A DNA stretch of 64,000 bases, taken from Mycolicibacterium anyangense (GTDB taxonomy: Bacteria; Actinomycetota; Actinomycetes; Mycobacteriales; Mycobacteriaceae). This document shows positions 5,308 to 44,716 of this stretch, piece after piece. Position 1 is the first letter of the stretch, and every line of letters starts with the position of its first letter. A program made the position numbers and the translations under genes. The stretch lies in assembly GCF_010731855.1 (NCBI RefSeq), contig NZ_AP022620.1, positions 5,332,001 to 5,396,000 on the forward strand, given 5' to 3'. Below the pieces are notes generated by a model. That model saw nothing but the letters and a program-made list of their open reading frames with translations. It had not been told where the DNA came from and searched no databases.

Positions 5308-5773
5308 CACCCGGATGGACAGCGGCACCGCCGAACTGCCGACCCCCGAGGACACCATCTCACTGGGAGTACGGCTGGGTGAGCAATTGCGCGCCGGCGA
5401 CGTGGTGGTGCTCTCCGGGCCGCTCGGGGCGGGAAAGACCGCTCTGGCCAAGGGAATCGCGATCGGCATGGACGTCGACGGCCCCGTCACCTCGCCGACG
5501 TTCGTCCTGGCCCGCGTGCACAATGCCCGGCGCCACGAGCACCCGGCGATGATCCACGTCGATATCTACCGCCTTCTCGACGACGACCGCGCCGATCTGC
5601 TGGCCGAGCTGGACTCACTGGACCTGGACACCGATCTCGAGGACGCGGTCGTCGTGGTCGAGTGGGGCGAGGGCCTGGCCGAGCGGCTCTCCGACAACCA
5701 CCTGGACATCACCCTGCAACGCCGTCCCGACAGTGAGACCCGCACCGCGACATGGCAATGGAACCGTCGATGA
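5300..5773 (+). CDS. tsaE: tRNA threonylcarbamoyladenosine ATPase TsaE
   Basis: 157 residues. P-loop ATPase that drives turnover of the TsaB-TsaD complex making t6A37 in ANN-decoding tRNAs. The Walker A motif is GPLGAGKT at residues 40-47, followed by the TSPTFVL switch region, HVDIYRL and a VVVEWGEG motif typical of the family. It starts with GTG inside the hydrolase gene and ends in an ATGA overlap with tsaB. Confidence 0.96.
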   Translation: MADTRMDSGTAELPTPEDTISLGVRLGEQLRAGDVVVLSGPLGAGKTALAKGIAIGMDVDGPVTSPTFVLARVHNARRHEHPAMIHVDIYRLLDDDRADLLAELDSLDLDTDLEDAVVVVEWGEGLAERLSDNHLDITLQRRPDSETRTATWQWNRR

Positions 5774-6414
5774 CCCGCATCCTGCTGACCCTGGACACCG
5801 CCACCCCGGCCGTCACCGCCGCGGTCGTGGCCCGCGATGACAGCGGGCAGGCCACGCTGCTGGCCCGCCGGATCACCGTCGACGCCAGGGCACATGCCGA
5901 GATGCTCACCCCGAATGCGGTATCCGCCGTCGCCGAGGCCGGCCTGACCATGGCCGACCTCGACGGCGTCGTCGTCGGATGCGGGCCGGGCCCGTTCACC
6001 GGGTTGCGGGTCGGGATGGCCACCGCGGCCGCCTACGGACACGCCCTCGGGGTGCCGGTGTACGGCGTATGCAGCCTGGACGCGATCGGTGTGCTGACCA
6101 CCGGCGAGGTGCTGGTGGTCACCGACGCCCGCCGCCGGGAGGTGTACTGGGCGCGCTATCGCGACGGTCAGCGCGTCGACGGCCCTGCCGTCGATGCTGC
6201 GGCCGACGTGCCGGTCGGCGGGGTGCAGGCCGTGGCCGGTTCACCCGAGCACGTCGGGCTGTTCGAGCTGCCCACTCTGGAGGCGGACCACCCCACCCCG
6301 GTGGGACTTGTTGCGGCCGTGGCTGACTGGTCTGCCGAGCCGGCGCCATTGGTGCCGCTGTATCTGCGTCGGCCGGACGCCAAGACGCTCGCCGAGAGAG
6401 GCGTACTGCGGTGA
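5770..6414 (+). CDS. tsaB: tRNA threonylcarbamoyladenosine protein TsaB
   Basis: 214 residues from ATG 5770, chosen because its ATGA overlaps the tsaE stop; an upstream in-frame ATG at 5752 is less likely. The actin-like ASKHA fold is shown by LTLDTATPAVTAAVV at the N terminus and GCGPGPFTGLRVGM, the typical TsaB phosphate-1 region. It forms the platform that binds TsaD and TsaE in t6A synthesis. It ends overlapping rimI (GTGA). Confidence 0.95.
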   Translation: MTRILLTLDTATPAVTAAVVARDDSGQATLLARRITVDARAHAEMLTPNAVSAVAEAGLTMADLDGVVVGCGPGPFTGLRVGMATAAAYGHALGVPVYGVCSLDAIGVLTTGEVLVVTDARRREVYWARYRDGQRVDGPAVDAAADVPVGGVQAVAGSPEHVGLFELPTLEADHPTPVGLVAAVADWSAEPAPLVPLYLRRPDAKTLAERGVLR

Positions 6415-6866
6415 ACGTCGTCTACGGTCCGCTTCAGCCCACCGATGCCGCCCGGTGTGCGGAACTGGAGATGCAGCTTTTCGAGGGTGACGACCCGTGG
6501 CCGGAGTTCTCGTTCGTCCGGGAACTGGGCGCCCGGCACAACCGCTATGTCGCGGCCAGGGCGGAGGACAAGCTCGTCGGCTATGCCGGGATCTCCCGGC
6601 TGGGCCGCACCCCGCCCTTCGAATATGAGATCCACACCATCGGAGTCGATCCCGCATACCAGGGCAAGGGCATCGGCCGGCGGATGATGAACGACCTGCT
6701 CGACGGTATCGATCCCGGCTCGGTGGTGTACCTGGAGGTCCGCACCGACAACGTACCGGCGATCACCCTGTACGAGAGCCTCGGCTTCGAGAAGATGGGT
6801 GTCCGCAAGCGCTATTACCAGGCCAGCGGAGCCGATGCCTTCACCATGCGACGGGACCCAGCATGA
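6411..6866 (+). CDS. rimI: Ribosomal-protein-alanine N-acetyltransferase
   Basis: 151-residue GNAT acetyltransferase. The acetyl-CoA-binding motif A is seen as [11 protein letters not shown] and the C-terminal IRKRYYQ-type segment (GVRKRYYQ) is shared with RimI proteins that acetylate the N terminus of S18. It starts with GTG overlapping the tsaB stop and overlaps tsaD by 4 nt (ATGA). In mycobacteria the substrate range may be broader than S18. Confidence 0.94.
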
Positions 6867-7888
6867 CAATCATCCTGGCCATCGAAAGCTCTTGTGACGA
6901 AACAGGAGTCGGCATCGCACACCTGGACGGCGATGGCGCCGTGACCCTGTTGGCCGACGAGGTGGCCTCCAGTGTCGACGAGCACGCCCGCTATGGCGGG
7001 GTGGTGCCCGAGATCGCCTCGCGCGCGCATCTGGAAGCTCTGGGGCCCACCATGCGCCGGGCGCTGGCCGCCGCCGCGATCGACAAGCCCGACATCGTCG
7101 CGGCCACCATCGGCCCCGGCCTGGCCGGCGCGCTGTTGGTGGGCGTGGCCGCCGCCAAGGCCTATGCGGCGGCCTGGGGTGTGCCCTTCTACGCCGTCAA
7201 CCACCTCGGCGGGCACCTGGCCGCCGACGTCTACGACCACGGGCCGTTGCCCGAGAGCGTGGGCCTGCTGGTCTCTGGTGGGCACACTCACCTGCTGCAT
7301 GTGCGCTCGCTCGGTGAGCCGATCATCGAGCTCGGCAGCACCGTCGACGACGCGGCAGGCGAGGCCTACGACAAGGTGGCCCGACTGCTGGGCCTGGGCT
7401 ATCCGGGCGGCAAGGTGCTCGACGACCTGGCCCGCACCGGGAACCGGGAGGCGATTGTCTTCCCCCGGGGCATGACCGGCCCCCGCGACGAGCGTTTCGC
7501 GTTCAGCTTCTCCGGCCTCAAGACCGCAGTCGCGCGCTACGTGGAGAGCCATCCCGATTACGACGCCGCCGACGTGGCCGCGGGCTTCCAGGAGGCTGTC
7601 GCCGACGTGCTCACCGCCAAGGCCGTGCGCGCCGCGACCGAGCTCGGGGTGTCCGCGCTGTTGATCGCCGGCGGCGTGGCGGCCAACTCCCGGCTGCGTG
7701 AGCTCGCCGAAGAGCGTTGTGCTGCAGCCGGTTTGACATTACGCATCCCGAGGCCGCGGTTGTGTACCGACAATGGGGCCATGATCGCCTCCTTCGCCGC
7801 CCATCTGATTGCCGCGGGCGCATCGCCGTCTGCCCTCGACGCTCGCAGTGACCCGGGTCTGCCGGTGATCGCGGGGCAGGTGGGATGA
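6863..7888 (+). CDS. tsaD: tRNA threonylcarbamoyladenosine transferase TsaD
   Basis: 341 residues. Catalytic subunit that transfers the threonylcarbamoyl group to A37. Metal-binding His114 and His118 are in [17 protein letters not shown] at the N terminus and SGGHTHL are family signatures. With tsaE and tsaB it gives three of the four t6A proteins in one overlapping operon (TsaC is elsewhere). It overlaps the following NTF2-like gene by ATGA. Confidence 0.97.
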
Positions 7889-8337
7889 GCGCGGCCGACA
7901 AGCTCGAGATCACCGAACTGCTCTACCGCTACGCCGAACTGATCGACTCCGGCGACTTCGACGGCGTCGGCACTCTGCTGGCCCGGGCCAGCTTCGGTGG
8001 GCCCAACACCCCGAGTGTGTCGGGGGCCGACAACATCGCCGGGCTGTTCGGGATGACCACCCGCCGGTTCGCCGACACGGGTACACCCAAGACCCGCCAC
8101 CTCGTCCTCAACGCCATCGTAGACCTCGACGGTGACACCGCCACGTCGCGCTCGACATTCCTGGTAATGCAGGCCACCGACACGGTGCGGTTCCAGCCGA
8201 TCGTGGCTGGCCGCTACTACGACCGCTTCGCCCGTGACGGCAACGGCTGGTACTTCACCGAACGCAAGGCCGACGTCGAGATGGTCGGGGACGTGTCGGA
8301 CCATCTGCTGATCGACCCGCACGCGTTCGATCGGTGA
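7885..8337 (+). CDS. SnoaL/NTF2-like domain protein
   Basis: 150 residues with the alpha+beta barrel pattern of SnoaL-like proteins: an N-terminal helix [20 protein letters not shown], a central [13 protein letters not shown] strand ([12 protein letters not shown]) and a terminal YFTERKADV strand. These bind or modify small molecules or serve as non-catalytic folds; no function can be assigned. It is translationally coupled to tsaD (ATGA) and ends 289 bp before groES. Confidence 0.8.
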
Positions 8338-8455
8338 TGCACTATGACCTGTTCAATGTGCTGGTCATCGCCTTCTCCGGGGATATCCGGGTGGCCCGCC
8401 AACGGTCAGCGAGCGCGGGCGGCTAAGCCGTCGGCGAATCTGCAAAGGGTCACCC

Positions 8456-8484
8456 TTGAGTGCTAGCACTCGCATGTATAGAGT
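8456..8484 (+). promoter_or_regulatory. groESL promoter
   Basis: TTGAGT (8456-8461), a 17-nt spacer and TAGAGT (8479-8484) form a housekeeping-type promoter. It overlaps the CIRCE element, and its start site would give a groES leader of roughly 135 nt. Confidence 0.65.
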
Positions 8485-8489
8485 GCTAG
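8463..8489 (+). promoter_or_regulatory. CIRCE element (HrcA operator)
   Basis: CTAGCACTC, 9 nt, GAGTGCTAG: a perfect inverted repeat matching the CIRCE consensus bound by HrcA. It covers the -10 box of groES, so HrcA binding would block transcription until heat stress. Confidence 0.92.
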
Positions 8490-8626
8490 GTGGCACGCGG
8501 CCAACCCCCTGCGCCGGCACCCGCGACGACGACGCGAAGGCTTGGACGTATGCCGAACACCTGGTTAAACCGACAGGTCCGGGGAAAAGCCCCGGGCCCG
8601 CACCCCTAACAGTGGAGGACTCCATC

Positions 8627-8926
8627 GTGGCCGTGAACATCAAGCCACTCGAGGACAAGATCCTCGTACAGGCCAATGAGGCCGAGACGACCACCGCATC
8701 GGGTCTGGTCATCCCGGACACCGCCAAGGAGAAGCCGCAGGAAGGCACCGTCGTCGCCGTCGGCCCCGGCCGCTGGGACGAGGATGGCGAGAAGCGTATT
8801 CCGCTGGATGTCGCCGAGGGCGACACCGTCATCTACAGCAAGTACGGCGGCACCGAGATCAAGTACAACGGCGAGGAGTACTTGATCCTGTCGGCCCGCG
8901 ACGTGCTGGCGGTCGTCAACAAGTAG
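8627..8926 (+). CDS. groES: Co-chaperonin GroES
   Basis: 99 residues, beginning [15 protein letters not shown], with the mobile loop around [19 protein letters not shown] and the conserved [11 protein letters not shown]. It caps GroEL. GTG 8627 is preceded by GTGGAGG (8612-8618); an in-frame extension upstream runs through the promoter and is not coding. First gene of the CIRCE-controlled groES-groEL1 pair. Confidence 0.97.
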
Positions 8927-10630
<1,704 letters not shown>

Positions 10631-10646
10631 GTAGCGCAGCCTCGAC

Positions 10647-10696
10647 TGTGGGGCTTATGTACGCGATCTGCTCGATCTGCGTACATAAGCCCCACA
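10647..10696. terminator. 18-bp perfect inverted repeat after groEL1
   Basis: Arms at 10647-10664 and 10679-10696 pair perfectly over 18 bp around a 14-nt loop. It lies 17 nt after the groEL1 stop, so it may end the operon, but there is no T run, and the exceptional symmetry may instead mark a repeat element. Confidence 0.55.
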
Positions 10697-10740
10697 CTCG
10701 TCTCTAGACCCTCCTCGCCCCTGGCCTTCCGCGAGCCGCG

Positions 10741-10799
10741 AGTGTGCGGTTCGTCCGCGACTCGCCGCTTGGCGCAGCGCGTATGGCGATGCACGCTCG
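10741..10799. repeat. Short dispersed repeat, copy 1
   Basis: About 59 bp beginning AGTGTGCGGTT and ending GCACGCTCG, with near-inverted ends. A second copy (55 bp) lies at 11324-11378. The shared core is CCGCGACTCGCCGC followed by CGCAGCGCGTATGGCGATG. It resembles a REP-like palindromic element. Confidence 0.7.
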
Positions 10800-10919
10800 C
10801 CTCGCAGATCTGTCGCATCATCGTTGCTAGCTCCGCGTCAGATGGGCGTTGAAGATCTTTGCGGAAGCCAGCAATATGGCCGTATTGTCATACAACATTG
10901 GCAATGACAGGGGCAACAC

Positions 10920-11273
10920 GTGCTGCGCATCTTCACCGTCTCGGTCGTCATCGGCAGCGCCGGGATCTTCGGCTTGGCCGTACCGCCATACGCGGCGGCC
11001 GCCAAATGCCAATCCGGCTACTATTGGTCCAGCTATCACCAGGTCTGCGTCGAAAGGCCAGATACCAACTCCCAGAACGCAACCGCGCTGTGTAACGACG
11101 GGCTTTACAGTCATAGCCTGACGCCCGGGGCTGACGAGAACTGTCATGGGCACGGCGGAGTCGCGCAGTATTGCCCGTGTGGCACTGCGTCAGGTCAGGC
11201 GATGTCGCCGTTCGATGTGACCTTGGTCGAACCGTACTCGGCAAGGGATGCCAAGGCTGTCGTAGCGGGCTGA
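10920..11273 (+). CDS. Small secreted protein, DUF3761-like
   Basis: 117 residues. An N-terminal signal peptide (hydrophobic stretch to about residue 27, AAAA cleavage region) is followed by a CQSGYYWSSYHQVCV segment and a domain with ALCNDGLYSHS and CHGHGGVAQYC, which resembles the DUF3761 family of exported proteins. Five or more cysteines suggest disulfides. GTG 10920 is the likely start. The gene lies between the two copies of the short repeat. Confidence 0.65.
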   Translation: MLRIFTVSVVIGSAGIFGLAVPPYAAAAKCQSGYYWSSYHQVCVERPDTNSQNATALCNDGLYSHSLTPGADENCHGHGGVAQYCPCGTASGQAMSPFDVTLVEPYSARDAKAVVAG

Positions 11274-32056: not shown

Positions 32057-32072
32057 TCGAACATACTTTCGA
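32057..32072 (+). promoter_or_regulatory. LexA/SOS box of imuA'-imuB
   Basis: TCGAACATACTTTCGA matches the mycobacterial LexA consensus TCGAAC-N4-GTTCGA at 11 of 12 positions. It lies 35 bp before imuA'. Confidence 0.85.
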
Positions 32073-32107: not shown

Positions 32108-32794
32108 ATGACGGCGGCGCTTGCCCGGGAGAAAGACCCGTATAAGCGTGCTGAGCAGCTACAACAGCTCCGCAAACAGATGGCGGCGGTGTCCGGGAAA
32201 GTGGGCGTCAGCCGACGGGGCGCCGAACCCGACGATCAGGTCATCCCGACGTCGGAAAGTTTGCTGCCGATCCCTGAATCGCTGGCTGGCCTGCTCCCTG
32301 GCGGGTTGCCGCGTGGGGCGGTGGCGGTGGTCTCCGGGGCCCGGTCGCTACCGGTGAGCATGGCCGCCGCGGTGAGCGCCGGCGGCGGCCATGTGGCCGT
32401 GGTCGGGGTGCCGGATTTCGGTCTGCTCGCCGCTGCGGAGATGGGGGCGGATCTGAGCCGGATCGCGGTGGTCCCCGATCCGGGTACCGATCCGGTCGAG
32501 GTGGCCGCGGTGCTGATGGACGGGATGGACCTGGTGGTGCTTGGCCTGGCCGGCGCGACGGTGAGCGCAACCCGCGCACGGGCCGTGGTGGCCCGGGCCC
32601 GCCAGAGGGGTTGCGCCCTGGTGGTCACCCGGGGGGACTGGCAGGGTGCCTCGATCCGGCTGGACGCCCGGGTGCGCGGCTATGAGGTGACCGCTGGGCG
32701 CAGCGGTGTGCCGGTGGCGGGGTGCGGGCGGATCAGCCGGGTGCGATTGTCCGTGCGGGCCGGTGGTCGGTCGGTCCGGTCGAGGACGGGCTGA
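32108..32794 (+). CDS. imuA': Mutasome protein ImuA'
   Basis: 228 residues. RecA-fold-related accessory protein of the mycobacterial mutasome, with [28 protein letters not shown] N-terminal segment (residues 49-72) and [12 protein letters not shown] in place of a strict Walker A. It works with ImuB and DnaE2 in error-prone translesion synthesis. ATG 32108 follows TGGAGG. imuB overlaps its end region (stop at 32794, imuB GTG at 32796). Confidence 0.9.
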
Positions 32795-32795
32795 T

Positions 32796-34364
32796 GTGAC
32801 CGCCCGGGTTCTGGCGATCTGGTGCATGGACTGGCCGGCGGTGGCCGCTGCGGTGGCCGTGGGCCTGGAGGCCACCGCGCCGGTGGCCGTCACCCTGGCC
32901 AACCGGGTGATTGCGTGTTCATCGGCGGCCCGCGCAGCCGGGGTGCGTCGCGGATTGCGGCGGCGCGAATCGCAGGCGCGCTGCCCGCAGTTGTATGTGG
33001 TGGCCGCCGACCCGGCCCGCGACGCACGTTTCTTCGAGGGTGTGACGGCCGCGGTCGACGAGGTGGTGCCCCGTGCTGAGGTGTTGCGGCCCGGCCTGCT
33101 GGTGCTGGCCGTGCGGGGTGCGGCCCGCTACTTCGGCTCCGAGCAGGATGCCGCCGAGCGTCTGGTCGACGCCGTTGCCGCAGCCGGTGCCGAATGCCAG
33201 GTCGGTATTGCCGACCAGTTGGGCACTGCGGTCTTCGCGGCCAAAGCCGGCCGGGTGATCGAGCCCGGCCAGGATGCGGCGTTCCTCTCGACGTTGTCCA
33301 TCCGGCAGCTCGCCGCTGAACCGAGCCTGTCCGGTCCCGGCCGTGATGAGCTCGCGGACTTGTTGTGGCGCATGGGCATTCGTACGTTCGGTCAGTTCGC
33401 CGAATTCTCCCGTAGCGATGTGGCCTCCCGATTCGATGCCGACGCAGTGGCTGCTCATCGACTGGCCCGCGGGGAGCCGGTGCGCGGGCCGTCGGGCCGT
33501 GCGGTGCCTGCCGAACTCGATGCCGTGCTCACCTGCGACCCGCCCATCGACCGGGTGGACGCCGCCGCCTTCGCCGGGCGCGCGCTGGCCGCCGCGCTGC
33601 ATCGCAGCCTGGAGTCGGCCGGTGTCGGGTGTACCCGGCTGGCCATTCACGCTGTCACCGCCAAAGGCGGGGAACTGACCCGGGTGTGGCGGTGTGCCGA
33701 ACCGCTGACCGAGGATGCCACCGCCGACCGGGTGCGCTGGCAGCTCGACGGCTGGCTCAATCAGCGCCGCGCGCAGGACCGCCCCAACGCCCCGGTGACG
33801 CTGCTGCGGCTGCAGCCGGTGGAAGTCGTGTCCGCCGAGGCGCTTCAGCTTCCGCTCTGGGGCGGGGTGGGGGAGGAGGACCGGTTGCGGGCCCGCCGCG
33901 CGCTGGTCCGGGTGCAGGGCCTGCTGGGTCAGGAGGCTGTCCAGCTGCCGATGCTGTCCGGCGGCCGCGGCCCCGCCGAGCGGATCACCCTGACTCCGCT
34001 CGGTGACGAACAGGTGCCCAGAGCCGACCCGAACCGGCCGTGGCCCGGCCGGCTGCCCGACCCGGCTCCCACGGTGCTCCTCGATGATCCGGTGGAACTG
34101 CTTGATGCCCAGGGTAATCCGGTCAAGGTCACTGCGCGGGGGATGTTCACCGCCGAACCGGCACACCTGGACGGCCAGTACCCGGGCGAGTTGAGGTGGT
34201 GGGCCGGGCCGTGGCCGGTGGACGAACGGTGGTGGGATCAAGCAGAGCCGTCCCGCGCCGGTCGGACGGCGCGGGCCCAGGTGCTGGTGGGGGAGGAGCC
34301 GGGCACCGCGCTGCTGCTGTGTTACCGGCAGCGCCGGTGGTACCTGGAAGGGGTTTACGAATGA
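32796..34364 (+). CDS. imuB: Y-family polymerase-like mutasome protein ImuB
   Basis: 522 residues. Begins MTARVLAIWCMDWPAVAAAV, a Y-family polymerase palm start with the catalytic Asp/Glu residues degraded, as known for ImuB. The beta-clamp-binding motif ALQLPLWG lies at about residue 350, followed by the C-terminal region that binds DnaE2/ImuA'. It bridges DnaE2 to the clamp. GTG 32796 begins just past the imuA' stop. Its last 10 nt overlap the convergent nucleoside hydrolase gene. Confidence 0.93.
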   Translation: MTARVLAIWCMDWPAVAAAVAVGLEATAPVAVTLANRVIACSSAARAAGVRRGLRRRESQARCPQLYVVAADPARDARFFEGVTAAVDEVVPRAEVLRPGLLVLAVRGAARYFGSEQDAAERLVDAVAAAGAECQVGIADQLGTAVFAAKAGRVIEPGQDAAFLSTLSIRQLAAEPSLSGPGRDELADLLWRMGIRTFGQFAEFSRSDVASRFDADAVAAHRLARGEPVRGPSGRAVPAELDAVLTCDPPIDRVDAAAFAGRALAAALHRSLESAGVGCTRLAIHAVTAKGGELTRVWRCAEPLTEDATADRVRWQLDGWLNQRRAQDRPNAPVTLLRLQPVEVVSAEALQLPLWGGVGEEDRLRARRALVRVQGLLGQEAVQLPMLSGGRGPAERITLTPLGDEQVPRADPNRPWPGRLPDPAPTVLLDDPVELLDAQGNPVKVTARGMFTAEPAHLDGQYPGELRWWAGPWPVDERWWDQAEPSRAGRTARAQVLVGEEPGTALLLCYRQRRWYLEGVYE

Positions 34365-37575: not shown

Positions 37576-38310
37576 CTAGCCGACCGCGCCGCCGACCAGG
37601 TGGCCGATCCCGAAGGTGATCGCCATGGCCAGTGCGCCGCCGATCACCACCCGTTGGATCGCGCGGCCGGCGTCGGCGCCGCCGAGGCGGGCGCTGAGCC
37701 AGCCGGTGACTGCCAGCGCGATGAGCACCGCGGCGAAGGTGATCGGAATCCGAGTCGACGGCGGCGGCAGCAGGATGGCCAGCATCGGCAGGATCGCCCC
37801 GACGGTGAACGCAATGGCCGACGAGATCGCGGCCTGCCACGGATTGGTCAGCTCCTCGGGGTCGATGCCGAGTTCGATGTCGATGTGCGCGGCGAACGCG
37901 TCGTGGTCGGTGAGTTCCTCGGCCACCGTGCGGGCGGTGGCCGGTGTGAGGCCTTTGGCTTCGTAGAGTGCGGCCAGTTCATCGAGTTCGGCGGCGGGCT
38001 GAGTGTCCAGCTCCCGGCGCTCCTTCTGCAGCAGCGCCTTCTCGGTGTCGCGCTGGGTGCTCACGGACACGTACTCGCCCAGGGCCATCGACAGCGCGCC
38101 GGCAGCCAGGCCGGCGATGCCCGCGGTGAAGATCGGATCGCGGTCGGTGGTGGCGGCCGCGACGCCGACGACGATGCCGGCCACCGACACGATCCCGTCG
38201 TTGGCACCGAGCACGCCGGCCCGCAGCCAGTTCAGCTTGCTGCCGATCGCGCCGTGATGCGGCTCAGCCGGATGTAGTTGGGGCTCTGGCGTGTCCGGTG
38301 TCTCGCTCAC
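37576..38310 (-). CDS. VIT1/CCC1-family (iron/manganese) transporter
   Basis: 244 residues. GAIGSKLNWLRAGVLGANDG is the conserved N-terminal signature, followed by helix pair VAGIVVGVAAATTD, an acidic cytosolic domain (about 80-150) with YVSVSTQRDTEKALLQKE, and C-terminal membrane helices. It probably exports or stores divalent iron/manganese. GTG 38310 overlaps the DUF899 stop (GTGA), so the genes are coupled. Confidence 0.9.
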   Translation of the reverse strand: MSETPDTPEPQLHPAEPHHGAIGSKLNWLRAGVLGANDGIVSVAGIVVGVAAATTDRDPIFTAGIAGLAAGALSMALGEYVSVSTQRDTEKALLQKERRELDTQPAAELDELAALYEAKGLTPATARTVAEELTDHDAFAAHIDIELGIDPEELTNPWQAAISSAIAFTVGAILPMLAILLPPPSTRIPITFAAVLIALAVTGWLSARLGGADAGRAIQRVVIGGALAMAITFGIGHLVGGAVG

Positions 38311-39002
38311 GGGGAAAGCGTAGGTCCTTGGCCGTACGCCCGCGCGATGTCGGGCGAGTCGGCCCAACCGGAATATGTGGGGCGTTGCGGCCAGCCATCG
38401 GGGGAGTCCTGCCATTCTTCCTGGCGGCCCCAGGGAAGTACGTCGATGAGACCGAAAGAGTGGCTGAGCTGTTCGGTGCCACGGCCATTGGTGTGCCATG
38501 TCCGGTACACCCGATCCGCACTGTCACGTAAGAAGACGTTCACCGCGAAACCGCCACCGGGGCCGGCGTCGACGTCGGTGCCGAACGAACTCTGGGCCGA
38601 GGAGTACCAGTCCATCTGGTTGCCGACCCTCGCCTTGTAGGCCATGGCTTCCTCGATCGGCCCGTTGGTGACGATCACGAAGCGGGCGTCGTAGTTGGCC
38701 AGGAACTCCAGTCGGGTGAACTGTGAGGTGAACCCCGTGCAGCCCGGGCACTGCCATTGCGCGCCGTCGCTCCACATGTGGTGGTAGACGATCAACTGGG
38801 AGTGGCCGTCGAATACCTCGGCCAGCCTGATCGGTCCGTCCGGCCCGATCAGGGTGTAGTCGGGCAGTTCCACCATCGGCAGCCTGCGCCGTTGGGCGGC
38901 GATGGCGTCGAGTTCACGGGTCGCGGCCTTCTCCCGGGCGCGCAGGTCATCGAGCGCGGCGCGCCAGGTCTGTTGGTCGACCACGGGTGGCAGGGCGGAC
39001 AT
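38307..39002 (-). CDS. DUF899 thioredoxin-like protein
   Basis: 231 residues. It has the thioredoxin-like segment WQCPGCTGFTSQF (CxxC) and the domain signature DWYSSAQSSFGTDVDAG. The family is widespread in actinobacteria and proteobacteria, probably redox-active, but without a proven substrate. It overlaps the VIT1-like transporter gene by 4 nt. Confidence 0.87.
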   Translation of the reverse strand: MSALPPVVDQQTWRAALDDLRAREKAATRELDAIAAQRRRLPMVELPDYTLIGPDGPIRLAEVFDGHSQLIVYHHMWSDGAQWQCPGCTGFTSQFTRLEFLANYDARFVIVTNGPIEEAMAYKARVGNQMDWYSSAQSSFGTDVDAGPGGGFAVNVFLRDSADRVYRTWHTNGRGTEQLSHSFGLIDVLPWGRQEEWQDSPDGWPQRPTYSGWADSPDIARAYGQGPTLSP

Positions 39003-39071: not shown

Positions 39072-41270
39072 TCATCGCGGGGCAAGCCCGGACAGCGATG
39101 GGGGCAGCGGACGCTGATGTAGGACACCCAGGCGCTGGGTGGCACGGGTGAGCGCGACGTAGAGTTCGGCGGCGCCGCGCGGCCCGTCGGCCAGGATGAG
39201 GTCGGGCTCCACCACCAGCACCGCGTCGAACTCCAGGCCCTTGGTCTCCGACGGCGCGACCGCACCCGGCACGCCCGGTGGTCCGATCACGACGCTGGTG
39301 CCCTCGCGGTCGGCCTCGGCCGCGACGAATTCGTCAATGGCAGAAGCCATCTCCTGTTCGCTCACCTGCCGGGACCAGGGGGCAACGCCGCACGCACGCA
39401 CCGACTCCGGTGGGCGGACATCGGGGGCGAACTCGGCGAGCACCGCGGCCGCCACCGCCATGATCTCGGCGGGCGTGCGGTAGTTCACCGACAGCGACCG
39501 GTAGATCCAGCGGTCGGGTACATAGGGTTCCAGCATCTGCGCCCATGATGTCGCGCCCGCCATGGACCGTCGTTGGGCGAGGTCGCCGACGACGGTGAAC
39601 GACCGGCTCGGGCAGCGCCGCATCAGCACCCGCCAGTCCATCTCCGAGAGCTCCTGGGCTTCGTCGACCACCACATGCCGGTAGGTCCAATCCCGGTCGG
39701 CGGCGGCGCGTTCGGCAAGATCGCGGTAGTCGCGCTCGGTGAAGCGTTCGGCGAGGCCCTCGGCGTCGATCAGATCCTGCGCCAGCAGGTGGTCTTCGTC
39801 GTCCATGAGATCCTCGTGGGCGACCATGTTCTCCAAAACGCCTCTGGCGTAGTCGGTTTCTTCCCGGAGTGCCTGTGCGGCGGCGTCGTCGGCCGCCTTG
39901 TCACGGCCCAGCAGATCGACCAATTCGTCGAGCAACGGCACATCCGAGGTTGTCCAGGCGTCGCCGACTTCCCGATGCAACGCCGGGTCGGCACCGGCGG
40001 CGCGCAACCGCTCGGGCGAGCTGTACAGCTCGGCCAACAGCTCGTGCGGCTCGAGGACCGGCCAGAGTTGATCGAGGGCCGACAGGAACCGCTCATTGTC
40101 TTCGAGGTCGGCGAGCAGGTCCGCCCTGACCTTCTCCCAGGCGTCCTTGTTCTCGCGGGTCAGCCAGCCGCGGCCGATCCGGGCGACCCCGCGCTCGGTC
40201 AGGACGTAGGTGACGATGTCGCGGAACACCGCACGAGCGGCGTTGTGGGGCAGTCCGCTTGCGCGGGCCTCGTCGATCGCCCACCCGGCGGTGTCAGCGG
40301 CGATCTGCATCGTCACATCACCCAGTGGGATCTCCAATGGTTGCTCGGGCACGCGTTGGCGGTCGGCGATCGCCGCCGCGAGGACGTCCAGCATCGCGCG
40401 AGAACCCTTGATGCGAGCGACATCTGGGGCGTCCTCGGCGGTGACGTGCAGACCGGGCAGGAGATCGCCGACCGTCATGAACACCACCTCGGATTCGCCG
40501 AGGGAGGGCAGCACCCGGCTGATGTGGTTCATGAACGCGTGGTTGGGGCCGACGACCAGCACCCCGTGCCGTTCGATCCGCTCCCGCTGGGTGTAGAGCA
40601 GGTACGCAACGCGATGCAGTGCCACCACCGTCTTGCCGGTGCCGGGTCCGCCCTCGATCACCAGCACCCCCGGGTGCTCGAGGCGGATGATCTCGTCCTG
40701 TTCGGACTGGATGGTCGCTACGATGTCGCGCATGCCCTCACCGCGGGGCGCGTTGACCGCGTACAGCAGTGCGGCGTCGCTGCTCAACGGACTGTCGTCA
40801 CCCGCATCAGGGTCGGGCCTGCCGAAGACTTCGTCGGTGAAATCGAGCAGCCGGCGTCCCAGGGAGTGGAACTGGCGCCGCCGGCGCATGCCCTCGGGGC
40901 TGGCGGCGGTGGCGATGTAGAAGGCGCGGGCGGCCGGGGCGCGCCAGTCCAGCAGCAGTGTCTCGTGATCGTTGTCCTCGTCGAAGATCCCGATCCGGCC
41001 GACGTAGAGCCGCTCACCGTTCACCGCGTCCAGCCGCCCGAAGCACAATCCGTGGTCGGCGACGTCCAGCCGGGCGGCCAACCGGGCCAGCGCCCGCACC
41101 TCGGCGTCGCGGGCCACCAGCGTCCCGCCGTCCTGAACGTCGATCGGGCCGCCGAGTGCGGCGCGGTACTGGGCCCTAACCCGTCTGCGCTTGCCGTCCA
41201 GTCGGTCGTAGAGGTCCGTCAGGTAATCCTGCTCGGACTCCAGTTCACGATCGTGTGCCTGCGACGTCAT
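39072..41270 (-). CDS. helR: RNA-polymerase-associated helicase-like protein HelR/HelD
   Basis: 732 residues of the HelD-type superfamily 1 NTPases. A charged N-terminal coil (residues 5-40), an insertion region, Walker A GGPGTGKT at 207-214, Walker B VVVDEAQELS, and later motifs GDLAQRRS and VALTRATQ define it. HelD displaces RNA polymerase from DNA; the HelR subgroup frees polymerase stalled by rifamycins and confers resistance. The exact RAE upstream supports HelR. ATG 41270 is chosen; an in-frame ATG at 41279 is possible. Divergent from dnaE2. Confidence 0.85.
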   Translation of the reverse strand: MTSQAHDRELESEQDYLTDLYDRLDGKRRRVRAQYRAALGGPIDVQDGGTLVARDAEVRALARLAARLDVADHGLCFGRLDAVNGERLYVGRIGIFDEDNDHETLLLDWRAPAARAFYIATAASPEGMRRRRQFHSLGRRLLDFTDEVFGRPDPDAGDDSPLSSDAALLYAVNAPRGEGMRDIVATIQSEQDEIIRLEHPGVLVIEGGPGTGKTVVALHRVAYLLYTQRERIERHGVLVVGPNHAFMNHISRVLPSLGESEVVFMTVGDLLPGLHVTAEDAPDVARIKGSRAMLDVLAAAIADRQRVPEQPLEIPLGDVTMQIAADTAGWAIDEARASGLPHNAARAVFRDIVTYVLTERGVARIGRGWLTRENKDAWEKVRADLLADLEDNERFLSALDQLWPVLEPHELLAELYSSPERLRAAGADPALHREVGDAWTTSDVPLLDELVDLLGRDKAADDAAAQALREETDYARGVLENMVAHEDLMDDEDHLLAQDLIDAEGLAERFTERDYRDLAERAAADRDWTYRHVVVDEAQELSEMDWRVLMRRCPSRSFTVVGDLAQRRSMAGATSWAQMLEPYVPDRWIYRSLSVNYRTPAEIMAVAAAVLAEFAPDVRPPESVRACGVAPWSRQVSEQEMASAIDEFVAAEADREGTSVVIGPPGVPGAVAPSETKGLEFDAVLVVEPDLILADGPRGAAELYVALTRATQRLGVLHQRPLPPSLSGLAPR

Positions 41271-41316
41271 ACCCCTCATTTCCACGGTTGTGTCAGGCGA
41301 GTGTGCGGGACGACCC

Positions 41317-41335
41317 GGGCCTTGCCGCAAGCCCC
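41317..41335 (-). promoter_or_regulatory. Rifamycin-associated element (RAE) upstream of helR
   Basis: On the minus strand GGGGCTTGCGGCAAGGCCC, a 19-bp inverted-repeat-containing sequence that matches the RAE consensus as I remember it for rifamycin-inducible genes of actinomycetes. It lies 46 bp before the helR start. Confidence 0.85.
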
Positions 41336-41392
41336 CTGGTCGGCTATAGGTTGAAGTGGGAAGTCGATGGGGGAATTCCCCGAGCCTGGCCT

Positions 41393-41408
41393 TAGAACAT
41401 ATGTTCGA
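41393..41408 (+). promoter_or_regulatory. LexA/SOS box of dnaE2
   Basis: TAGAACATATGTTCGA matches TCGAAC-N4-GTTCGA at 11 of 12 positions and directly precedes the -10 box of dnaE2. Confidence 0.85.
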
Positions 41409-41409
41409 T

Positions 41410-41415
41410 TAAGCT
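41410..41415 (+). promoter_or_regulatory. -10 box of dnaE2
   Basis: TAAGCT, 7 nt before GTG 41423; the transcript is likely leaderless and LexA would cover the promoter. Confidence 0.5.
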
Positions 41416-41422
41416 GGCGTGC

Positions 41423-44400
41423 GTGGGGTGGCACAACGGCCCGCCCAGCTGGGGCGAGATGGAGCGGGTGCTCAACAGCAAGCCGCGCCGCAGTGGGATG
41501 TCGCTGGGGGAGCCACACGCCGACGGCGGGGACAGCCCGGCCTGGTCTCGCAAGCGCCAACCCTACGAACCGGCCGTCGAACCCCCGCTGCGCTCCCGCG
41601 TTCCCTATGCCGAACTGCATACACATTCGGCCTACAGCTTTCTGGACGGGGCCAGTACCCCGGAAGAACTCGTCGAAGAGGCGGTGCGGCTGGATCTGCG
41701 GGCCATCGCGCTCACCGACCATGACGGCCTCTACGGGGTGGTGCGCTTCGCCGAGGCCGCCAAGGAACTCGACATGCGCACCGTCTTCGGCGCCGAACTG
41801 TCATTGAGTAACACCCCCCGCACCGAGGATCCCGATCCGCCCGGTCCGCATCTGCTGGTGCTGGCCCGTGGACCCGAGGGGTACCGCCGGCTGTCGCGGG
41901 AGATCGCCCGCGCGCATCTGGCCGGTGGAGAGAAGGGCAGGCCGCGCTACGACTACGACGCATTGGCCGAAGCCTCCGGCGGACACTGGCACATCCTGAC
42001 CGGATGCCGCAAAGGCCATGTCCGACAAGCATTCTCGACGGGTGGTCCCGAGGCGGCCGAGCGGGCCCTCGCCGACCTGGTCGACCGGTTCGGTGCGCAG
42101 CGGGTCAGTGTCGAGCTCACCCATCACGGCGACCCGCTCGACGACGAACGCAACGCGGCGCTGGCGGCGCTGGCGCCCCGGTTCGGCCTGTCGGTGGTCG
42201 CCACCACCGCCGCACACGTCGCCGAACCGAGCCGCGGCAGGCTGGCCATGGCGATGGGCGCGATCCGGGCCCGCCAGTCGCTCGACGAGGCGGCCGGCTG
42301 GCTGGCCCCGCTGGGCGGAGCGCACCTGCGCGCCGGTGACGAGATGGCCCGGCTGTTCTTCGAGTATCCCGAAGTTGTCACCGCTGCAGCCGATCTCGGC
42401 GAGCAGTGTGCGTTCGAGCTGGCGCTGATCGCCCCGCAGCTGCCACCGTTCGACGTGCCGTCCGGCGAAACCGAGGACAGCTGGCTGCGTGAGCTCACCA
42501 TGCTCGGCGCCGCCCGACGCTACGGTCCGCGATCGGCCGCGCCCGAGGCGTACGCGCAGATCGAGCGGGAACTCGCCGTCATCGCGCAGTTGAAGTTCCC
42601 CGGCTATTTCCTGGTGGTGCACGACATCACCCAGTTCTGCCGGCGCAACAACATCCTGTGCCAGGGCCGTGGATCGGCGGCCAACTCCGCGGTCTGTTAC
42701 TCCCTCGGCGTCACCGCCGTCGACCCGGTGGCCAACGGCCTGCTCTTCGAACGGTTCCTGTCCCCGGCCCGCGACGGCCCACCCGATATCGACATCGACA
42801 TCGAATCGGACCTGCGCGAGAAGGCAATCCAGTACGTCTACGAGCGCTACGGCCGCGACTACGCCGCCCAGGTGGCCAACGTGATCACCTACCGCGGCCG
42901 CAGTGCCGTGCGGGACATGGCCCGGGCACTCGGGTTCTCGCAAGGTCAGCAGGATGCCTGGAGTAAGCAGATCAGCCGGTGGAACGGGCTGGCCGACTCG
43001 CCCGATGTCGAGGACATCCCCGAACCGGTGATCGATCTGGCGCTGCAGATCAAGAACTTGCCCCGGCACATGGGCATCCACTCCGGTGGCATGGTGATCT
43101 GCGACCGGCCGATCGCCGACGTATGCCCGGTGGAATGGGCGCGGATGGAGAATCGCAGTGTGCTTCAGTGGGACAAAGACGACTGCGCGGCAATCGGTTT
43201 GGTGAAGTTCGACCTGCTGGGTCTGGGTATGCTCTCGGCGCTGCACTACTGCATCGACTTGGTCGCCGAACACAAGGGAATCGAGGTCGACCTGGCCCGC
43301 CTGGACCTGTCGGATGCGCGCGTCTACCAGATGCTGCAGAAGGCCGATTCTGTCGGGGTTTTCCAGGTGGAGTCCCGTGCTCAGATGGCAACCCTGCCGC
43401 GGTTGAAGCCCCGGGTGTTCTACGACCTGGTGGTCGAGGTCGCGCTGATCCGCCCCGGCCCGATCCAGGGCGGCTCGGTGCACCCGTACATCAAGCGGCG
43501 CAACGGTCTGGAACCGGTGGTCTACGACCATCCGGCGATGGAACCGGCGCTGCGAAAGACGTTGGGGGTACCACTGTTCCAAGAGCAGCTGATGCAACTG
43601 GCGGTGGACTGTGCGGGCTTTTCGGCTGCCGAGGCCGACCAGTTGCGCAGAGCCATGGGCTCCAAACGGTCCACCGAGAAGATGCGCCGGCTACGGGACC
43701 GGTTCTACGCCGGGATGGCGCAGCGGCACGGCATTACCGGGGAAGTGGCCGACCGGATCTACGAGAAGCTGGAGGCGTTCGCCAATTTCGGCTTCCCGGA
43801 AAGTCATTCGCTCAGCTTCGCCTCGCTGGTGTACTACTCGTCCTGGTTCAAGCTCTACCATCCGGCCGCGTTCTGCGCGGCGTTGCTGCGCGCGCAGCCG
43901 ATGGGCTTCTACTCCCCGCAGTCACTGGTCGCCGACGCCCGTCGCCACGGTGTCACCGTGCACGGCCCGTGCGTCAACGCCAGCCTGGCGTACGCCACGC
44001 TGGAGAACCAGGGGTTGGAGGTACGGCTGGGACTGGGGGCGGTGCGTCATATTGGTGATGACCTGGCCCAGCGCATCGTCGACGAACGGCAGGCTAATGG
44101 CCCGTATGCGTCGCTGCTGGATATGACTGGGCGCGTGACGCTTTCGGTGCCGCAGGCCGAGGCGCTGGCCACCGCGGGGGCGCTGGGCTGCTTTGCGATC
44201 ACCCGGCGTGAAGCACTGTGGGCGGCCGGCGCGGCGGCCACCCAGCGGCCAGACCGGCTGCCCGGGGTAGGGACCTCGTCGCACGTGCCGGCGCTTCCCG
44301 GGATGACGGAGGTGGAACTGGCCGCCGCCGATGTCTGGGCCACCGGGGTCTCTCCGGACAGTTACCCCACTCAGTTCCTGCGCGAGGACCTCGACGCACT

Positions 44401-44716
44401 GGGCGTCATCACCGCTGACCGGCTGCTCGGCATCCCCGACGGCAGCCGGGTGCTGATCGCCGGGGCGGTGACCCACCGGCAGCGCCCGGCCACCGCCCAA
44501 GGGGTGACGTTCATGAACATCGAGGACGAGACCGGCATGGTCAACGTGCTGTGCACACCCGGAGTGTGGAGCCGGCACCGCAAGCTCGCCCAGACCGCGT
44601 CGGCCCTGCTGATTCGTGGTCAGGTGCAGAACGCCACCGGGGCGGTGACGGTGATCGCCGAGCGGATGGGCCGTATCAGCATGACGGTGAGCTCGCGGTC
44701 GAGGGACTTCCGGTGA
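41423..44716 (+). CDS. dnaE2: Error-prone DNA polymerase DnaE2
   Basis: 1097 residues, C-family polymerase. An N-terminal PHP domain (residues about 55-250, starting AELHTHSAYSFLDG), palm with the catalytic PDIDIDIESD, and a C-terminal OB domain. DnaE2 with ImuA' and ImuB makes damage-induced mutations, including those giving rifampicin resistance. Start GTG 41423 (MGWHNGPPSW) fits the leaderless -10 box. LexA box directly upstream. Confidence 0.97.
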   Translation: MGWHNGPPSWGEMERVLNSKPRRSGMSLGEPHADGGDSPAWSRKRQPYEPAVEPPLRSRVPYAELHTHSAYSFLDGASTPEELVEEAVRLDLRAIALTDHDGLYGVVRFAEAAKELDMRTVFGAELSLSNTPRTEDPDPPGPHLLVLARGPEGYRRLSREIARAHLAGGEKGRPRYDYDALAEASGGHWHILTGCRKGHVRQAFSTGGPEAAERALADLVDRFGAQRVSVELTHHGDPLDDERNAALAALAPRFGLSVVATTAAHVAEPSRGRLAMAMGAIRARQSLDEAAGWLAPLGGAHLRAGDEMARLFFEYPEVVTAAADLGEQCAFELALIAPQLPPFDVPSGETEDSWLRELTMLGAARRYGPRSAAPEAYAQIERELAVIAQLKFPGYFLVVHDITQFCRRNNILCQGRGSAANSAVCYSLGVTAVDPVANGLLFERFLSPARDGPPDIDIDIESDLREKAIQYVYERYGRDYAAQVANVITYRGRSAVRDMARALGFSQGQQDAWSKQISRWNGLADSPDVEDIPEPVIDLALQIKNLPRHMGIHSGGMVICDRPIADVCPVEWARMENRSVLQWDKDDCAAIGLVKFDLLGLGMLSALHYCIDLVAEHKGIEVDLARLDLSDARVYQMLQKADSVGVFQVESRAQMATLPRLKPRVFYDLVVEVALIRPGPIQGGSVHPYIKRRNGLEPVVYDHPAMEPALRKTLGVPLFQEQLMQLAVDCAGFSAAEADQLRRAMGSKRSTEKMRRLRDRFYAGMAQRHGITGEVADRIYEKLEAFANFGFPESHSLSFASLVYYSSWFKLYHPAAFCAALLRAQPMGFYSPQSLVADARRHGVTVHGPCVNASLAYATLENQGLEVRLGLGAVRHIGDDLAQRIVDERQANGPYASLLDMTGRVTLSVPQAEALATAGALGCFAITRREALWAAGAAATQRPDRLPGVGTSSHVPALPGMTEVELAAADVWATGVSPDSYPTQFLREDLDALGVITADRLLGIPDGSRVLIAGAVTHRQRPATAQGVTFMNIEDETGMVNVLCTPGVWSRHRKLAQTASALLIRGQVQNATGAVTVIAERMGRISMTVSSRSRDFR

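Follow-up and report, generated by a model that had tools for sequence, protein, structure and literature searches.

In mycobacteria, dnaE2, which belongs with the imuA′-imuB mutasome, is controlled by LexA. The closest described relatives of the helR gene studied here are helR/helD of Mycobacterium abscessus (MAB_3189c) and M. smegmatis (MSMEG_2174), which encode class II HelD proteins controlled by a 19-bp rifamycin-associated element (RAE) and, as here, have the −35 element of a downstream promoter inside the RAE (excerpts of PMC8655204 and PMC10719064). According to the same excerpts, rifampicin induces helD in these relatives, and the induction was lost when half of the RAE was deleted (PMC8655204, PMC10719064). 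The M. smegmatis gene has two forward promoters, the first (P1) with its start roughly 20 bp upstream of the RAE and the second (P2) having a −35 element that overlaps it; how the RAE senses rifamycin is described there as an open question (excerpt of PMC10719064), and an unknown factor has been suspected (excerpt of PMC12802891). A related arrangement is the rifampicin alarm of Bacillus subtilis helD/pps, in which a HelD gene and a rifampicin-modifying enzyme are each controlled by a pair of promoters of opposed direction (excerpt of PMC12802891).

In the window, by which we mean the whole stretch of 64,000 nucleotides analyzed, helR (39072–41270, minus strand, 732 aa) encodes a class II HelD, an RNA polymerase recycling motor. 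The protein scored above the cut-offs of the NCBIfam models motor_HelR_2 (NF041258; 1334.3 bits, cut-off 1100) and HelD_MYCSM (NF041465; 1313.2 bits, cut-off 1051) and below that of motor_HelR (NF041254; 478.8 bits, cut-off 750). Its alignment with M. smegmatis HelD (6yxu) covered residues 3–730 at 1135 bits, with the Walker A sequence ggpgtgktvv conserved. The neighboring gene dnaE2 (41423–44716, plus strand, 1097 aa) encodes an error-prone polymerase that passed the corresponding NCBIfam model (NF004225; 1594 bits, cut-off 939) and contained PHP, DNA_pol3_alpha, finger, HHH_6, and OB domains. The ATG of helR at 41270 and the GTG of dnaE2 at 41423 are separated by 152 bp (41271–41422), and the claim of an earlier note on this DNA that this gap holds both an RAE and a LexA box was borne out, the RAE being exact and the LexA box having one mismatch; the distance between the two elements, given there as 58 bp, was measured as 57 bp. 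A DUF899 protein (PF05988) is encoded at 38307–39002 on the minus strand. The gene at 32706–34364 on the plus strand encodes a Y-family polymerase homologue with weak matches to the DNA polymerase IV family, below the cut-offs, and is by its position a candidate ImuB. A LexA-like box with one mismatch, TCGAACATACTTTCGA, was located upstream of this imuB-like gene at 32057–32072, 35 bp before a likely imuA′-imuB pair at about 32108–34364. At 7 kb from dnaE2, the imuB-like gene probably supplies the mutasome's other half, and if the imuA′-imuB identity is true, the whole mutasome including dnaE2 would lie within about 13 kb. A search with Rfam at gathering thresholds gave 0 matches, and a search for tRNAs also gave 0.

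The 19-bp RAE, an exact match to GGGGCTTGCGGCAAGGCCC, is located at 41317–41335 on the minus strand. When up to three mismatches were allowed, GGGGCTTGCGGCAAGGCCC gave two matches, both of them this same site, read once on each strand; shuffled sequences gave a mean of 0.10 matches, and two matches were reached in 1 of 100 shuffles. Throughout the 5.7-Mb genome, GGGGCTTGCNNCAAGNCCC occurred exactly at two places, the RAE of the window and a site before the gene of an FAD monooxygenase (L001). All remaining listed places had three mismatches, and because the reversed control was commoner there (82/78, versus 19/20 for the pattern), only exact copies were regarded as meaningful. The L001 protein scored 430.6 bits against the rifampin monooxygenase model (cut-off 800) and, being below the cut-off, is classed as Rox-like only. 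The LexA box, TAGAACATATGTTCGA (41393–41408), differs from TCGAACNNNNGTTCGA by one mismatch. The latter pattern, at up to one mismatch, gave 60 sites in the genome versus 10 for the reversed control, so that the motif alone is modest evidence; its position before dnaE2, however, is conserved. A −10 box of the TANNNT type, TAAGCT (41410–41415, plus strand), starts one base beyond the LexA box and leaves 7 bases to the GTG, which is leaderless spacing, in agreement with the earlier description of a LexA box abutting a leaderless −10. A similar TANNNT was seen by eye beside the box in relatives. The dnaE2 transcript is expected to start at or next to the GTG.

An RAE was present in 283 of the 395 genomes of the genus, and the first 150 RAEs listed among those of the 283 genomes were used for a census. 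By tblastn, the genes downstream of these 150 RAEs were arr (61), rox (41), helR (38), rgt (7), and rox2 (3); an Arr representative passed its model (200 bits, cut-off 130), while an Rgt representative scored below the cut-off (432.9 bits versus 800) and none of the Rox-like proteins tested reached theirs. A gapless alignment of the 150 sequences on the core showed conservation far past the 19 bp, and the RAE formed the center of a dyad-symmetric element of approximately 75 bp. In the window, the RAE contains the hexamers TTGCGG (minus strand, 41330–41325) and TTGCCG (plus strand, 41322–41327), which can be read as back-to-back −35 elements of two divergent promoters. On the gene side, a −10-like box, CACACT (41300–41305, minus strand), faces helR and fits the published P2. 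On the left, a back-facing −10-like box of the TANNNT type, TAGGTT (41347–41352, plus strand), faces dnaE2 at 19 bp from TTGCCG and would complete a putative promoter. A TTGC(G/C)G hexamer of the palindrome lies at a distance of 19 bp from each box, and the two boxes are equidistant from the dyad. The gene-side box (A at position 2 and T at position 6) was found at +26 to +31 in 150/150 of the listed RAEs, and the back TANNNT was found in one register in 148/150, the exceptions being L160 and L185, as compared with a mean of 0.1% in other registers. Position 1 was T in 149/150 back boxes and C in 146/150 gene-side boxes.

The two arms were also found outside the genus. Among the named helR RAEs, both arms were present in 22/22 non-mycobacterial cases, and the back arm and the gene-side arm were present in 22/23 and 23/23 mycobacterial cases, respectively. 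An RAE occurred in 138 of 295 genomes of the class, and in a sample of 30 RAE loci from seven other families both arms were present in 28/28 scorable loci (L314 and L317, with too little flank, were left out), the orientation having been taken from an identified gene in 24 and from the arms themselves in 4, for which the count is circular. The back arm accompanied tandem neighbors in 89/90 cases and divergent neighbors in 59/60, as called by a rough criterion of open reading frames and GC3 that misjudged L234. Because the arm was equally frequent beside both, its role lies in the cassette itself, and transcription of a divergent neighbor would be a by-product of the back arm and not its purpose.

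The strand of the left arm calls for caution, since A-N3-T reads identically on either strand, which also permits a forward reading of the arm as CANNNT; the A2/T6 test cannot separate the strands, and the three-letter TANNNT test is no proof of strand either. The backward reading is favored by the T at position 1, by the equal 19-bp spacing, and by the footprint: conservation above 0.7 bit ends at −29, about the start point of a backward transcript, and among the 150 listed RAEs no position exceeded 0.7 bit where a forward −35 upstream of the left arm would lie. We infer that the left arm of the RAE is a back-facing promoter. A sigma-70 scan of the region gave 0 promoters (0.1 in shuffles) under a rule of 16–18 bp for the spacer, which excludes 19. 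The M. smegmatis locus was not found among the 20 genomes tried, where the best identity was 76%. In open-licence PMC full texts, we found neither a second RAE arm nor an RAE-LexA or helR-dnaE2 juxtaposition, and we make no claim of absence from print.

For the relatives of HelR, the best 80 of 515 loci were used, and a tree of 81 rows was rooted at the midpoint. The window's clade comprised 14 loci (L020–L033) with HelR 83–93% identical, and dnaE2 was divergent from helR in 13 of them, the remaining one (L024) stopping at a contig end. The helR/dnaE2 group formed a single clade with an SH-aLRT value of 100 (15 rows, one ending at a contig end). In a quick DnaE2 tree of the first 480 residues, which held several near-identical rows and one very short, misplaced row (the truncated L023), one fork with a support of 92 united 20 rows that have helR with one row that stops at a contig end. 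Some of the loci are duplicates: L009 is the contig of L020, L254 is the contig of L023, and L265 has the same sequence as L021 here. The intergenic region was readable in the window and 13 named relatives. All 14 had the LexA box, that of L027 carrying a single mismatch in its GAAC-GTTC core, and the RAE core was found in 5/14 (the window, L020, L021, L023, and L027) and missing in 9/14, where helR and the LexA box stay. Hence the earlier expectation of a conserved pair with both elements held for the pair and the LexA box and failed for the RAE core, and because the core survives in only 5/14, helR/dnaE2 is not a fixed two-signal unit. By eye, L022 (M. rhodesiae DSM 44223) resembles L021 minus about 81 bp, the whole RAE cassette being removed, and L033 and L278 retain apparent decayed remnants of the cassette. 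We infer that an ancestral RAE cassette was repeatedly lost while helR and the LexA box were kept. Some genes of the HelR group without an RAE, including that of M. phlei, have been described (excerpt of PMC8655204).

Other features of these regions were also observed. In most of L021–L033, L276, and L278, the stretch from the LexA box to helR contains a variable element like GACGARGATGG, which was absent from the window, L020, and L028 among the intergenic regions compared. The dnaE2 frame was interrupted near codon 80 in L023, L234, and L292 (M. litorale F4 and its copy), by mutation or sequencing error, and the helR homologue of M. neoaurum ATCC 25795 (L088) has one internal stop. Between helR and DUF899, four loci (L022, L024, L028, and L031) have one or more related-looking open reading frames of roughly 260–350 aa, in tandem in L022, L024, and L031, which suggests repeated gene insertion.

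The surroundings of dnaE2 were examined in the best-scoring 30 loci from 59 genomes, all of which (59/59) had a match; being the best-scoring ones, these loci, which include the window itself (L273), are biased to close relatives. A LexA box was found by pattern in 28/30 (none in L281 and L299), with GAAC 26–28 bp before the start except in L292 (57 bp, start uncertain). The divergent neighbor of dnaE2 was helR in 6, DUF899 in 2, a PGM-like gene in 1, and a contig end in 1; the remaining loci had no neighbor from the query set within 400 bp. Judged from this distribution, the LexA box is a property of dnaE2, present with or without helR. The LexA box was considered as a feature of the helR/dnaE2 pair and rejected as such, as it goes with dnaE2 and with a radical SAM gene described below. 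In two dnaE2 loci without helR (L288 and L291), DUF899 is directly against dnaE2, and therefore helR occupies a slot between DUF899 and dnaE2. A Rox-like gene occupies the same slot in L248, between dnaE2 and DUF899; in L247, a Rox-like gene beside dnaE2 is followed by other genes.

The genus was scanned for the RAE core together with GAACNNNNGTTC at three gap ranges, with reversed patterns as controls. Gaps of 48–78 bp gave matches in 18/396 genomes (reversed control 1), gaps of 79–109 bp in 18/395 genomes at 20 places (reversed control 0), and gaps of 110–140 bp in 3/395 genomes (reversed control 1). After the flanks were read, 31 of the 41 places, in 29 genomes, were judged true. These were helR/dnaE2 (5), Rox-like/dnaE2 (5), helR with a radical SAM gene of the Rv2578c family (17), rgt-helR with a radical SAM gene (2), helR with a DUF222-like gene (1; L270, resting on a 34% match), and L014 (1), whose partner is off the contig. 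Four places (L013, L015, L250, and L271) were set aside as chance and two (L251 and L262) because the box fell on or within the start of the helR coding sequence. Another four (L255, L259, L260, and L261) were also set aside; they have a Rox-like gene, an RAE, and a shared upstream palindrome, CTGAAC-N4-GTTCAG, that is not LexA-like. One radical SAM protein tested passed NF038135 (512.9 bits, cut-off 430), and a LexA box preceded the radical SAM gene in 34/34 loci examined, some of which share a genome. The M. tuberculosis gene Rv2578c is SOS-controlled, and no paper on this control was found in open-licence PMC full texts. The Rox-like/dnaE2 pairs carry their own RAE, and in the DnaE2 tree six Rox-like rows were placed outside the helR fork, in more than one place. 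Two genomes, G290 and G295, have two RAE-LexA pairs each. In both (L264 and L268), an Rgt-like glycosyltransferase gene lies between the RAE and helR, divergent from the LexA-boxed radical SAM gene, and this rgt-helR arrangement is an apparent two-gene rifamycin operon; both genomes also carry Rox-like/dnaE2. In L101, L122, and L180, an Rgt-like gene with an RAE is divergent from a DUF222 (13E12-like) gene, and a LexA box with up to one mismatch lies about 150–180 bp upstream of the RAE. No exact GAACNNNNGTTC was found within 400 bp upstream among the named non-mycobacterial helR loci.

Among the 150 listed RAEs, a LexA box (up to one mismatch, within 260 bp) was found at 12, namely at helR (8), rgt (3), and rox2 (1), and at 0/61 of arr and 0/41 of rox. 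When the RAEs were clustered by upstream sequence with blastn, which may over-split, a LexA box was found in 4/91 contexts. The probability of this number was 0.0001, 0.04, or 0.26 at baselines of 0.27%, 1.4%, and 2.85%, respectively, the first derived from the genome count of LexA sites and the other two being rough promoter-level estimates. Because the values span this range, the enrichment of RAE-LexA pairing over chance is suggestive only. The recurrence of dnaE2 among 90 contexts had a chance probability of about 0.01–0.02 under a rough model (one gene in 5,500 to 11,000, given one dnaE2 case).

Taken together, we give slightly better than even odds (a probability of about 0.55) to the following account: helR was inserted beside dnaE2, the RAE and LexA signals are separate, and the RAE is a two-faced cassette with the LexA box in the path of its back half. 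Under this account, helR with its RAE promoter cassette would have entered the slot separating DUF899 from dnaE2 in a common ancestor of one mycobacterial clade; rifamycin would switch on helR via the RAE, and DNA damage would switch on dnaE2 via LexA, as two separate signals. Each strand of the RAE palindrome would contribute a −35-like hexamer, served by a −10-like box that lies toward helR in one case and faces back in the other. The back half in the window would point at dnaE2, and its transcript, with a predicted start near 41359, would cross the LexA box before entering dnaE2. The box is 34–49 nt past the predicted start, where LexA, when bound, could be a roadblock; dnaE2 may in this way come under a degree of rifamycin control. 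A further proposal appears doubtful: that the RAE, more than a 19-bp operator, provides the common −35 core for a dyad-symmetric, two-faced promoter whose back face makes dnaE2 respond to rifamycin, and that this face and the LexA roadblock form an AND gate of drug and damage for full dnaE2 expression. Several points weigh against the main account: no evident ribosome-binding site would precede the GTG in a back transcript, the left arm has its forward CANNNT reading, and the sigma-70 scan, with a spacer rule that excludes 19, gave no promoter. When the two helD promoters of B. subtilis were moved 17 bp closer together, so that a clash was expected, rifampicin induction was abolished (excerpt of PMC12802891), and therefore overlapping promoters need not sense the drug by polymerase clash. 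In M. smegmatis, dnaE2 was raised by ciprofloxacin, mitomycin C, and a four-drug combination, whereas rifampicin alone left the DNA-repair genes studied unchanged except for a peroxiredoxin (excerpt of PMC11578590). The latter observation also argues against the account; one would expect it of a dnaE2 without an RAE, if that of M. smegmatis is such.

A less likely account is that the two genes are mere neighbors, a helR with a standard RAE beside dnaE2 with independent promoters, the left arm being a forward promoter element or a piece of the operator of some rifamycin-sensing protein, with no effect on dnaE2. The loss of the RAE core in 9/14 regions where helR stays, the LexA box that dnaE2 keeps without helR, and the 4/91 contexts, which are within chance at the promoter-level baselines (P of 0.04–0.26), all agree with this, as do the forward P1 and the possible RAE-binding activator described for the relatives (excerpt of PMC10719064). 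It fits poorly with the Rox-like/dnaE2 pairs, which have their own RAE and lie elsewhere in the DnaE2 tree than helR/dnaE2, and with the lack of a conserved −35 upstream of the left arm. The earlier note had read the juxtaposition as a joint tolerance-plus-mutagenesis unit, in which selection keeps a rifamycin-induced protector beside a mutator for survival and resistance mutation. The elements are genuine, the pair is kept, and two kinds of RAE gene, helR and Rox-like, partner dnaE2 (chance P of about 0.01–0.02 in the rough model), with G290 and G295 holding two RAE-LexA pairs each; yet the LexA box is independent of helR, arr was never LexA-paired (0/61 listed), and the recurrent loss of the RAE (9/14) counts against such a unit because selection for it would not predict this loss. 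Moreover, first-line drugs did not significantly increase the mutation rate of M. smegmatis, even where the combination raised dnaE2 (excerpt of PMC11578590), and we regard the selected unit as improbable. An even more remote idea, proposed because the distance between helR and dnaE2 is short after RAE loss, is that helR in such relatives falls under the SOS promoter region of dnaE2. In the named relatives without an RAE, the genes are 53–148 bp apart (185 bp in L278) and the retained LexA box is 38–133 bp before helR; however, no helR promoter was identified in them, and the idea concerns relatives only, as the window keeps its RAE.

Returning to the two-faced cassette, the conserved symmetric second arm offers a concrete anatomy for rifamycin sensing by the RAE. 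Should the back arm prove to be a promoter, transcription from RAE cassettes would also run toward their upstream neighbor, which in this lineage is the polymerase linked to damage-induced mutagenesis.

Beyond the features shared with MAB_3189c and MSMEG_2174, the locus in the window has helR divergent from dnaE2 with its LexA box. The B. subtilis helD/pps promoters are convergent and spaced and have no RAE (excerpt of PMC12802891), whereas the conserved arms here, as we read them, would face apart and share the RAE as a common −35 region. The 17 pairs of helR with an Rv2578c-type radical SAM gene among the 31 true pairs have the RAE and LexA box back to back in the same way, except that the partner is not a polymerase. 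Compared with the usual LexA-controlled dnaE2 of mycobacteria, the window has the same error-prone polymerase, LexA box, and leaderless-type −10, and differs in having a rifamycin gene in the divergent slot.
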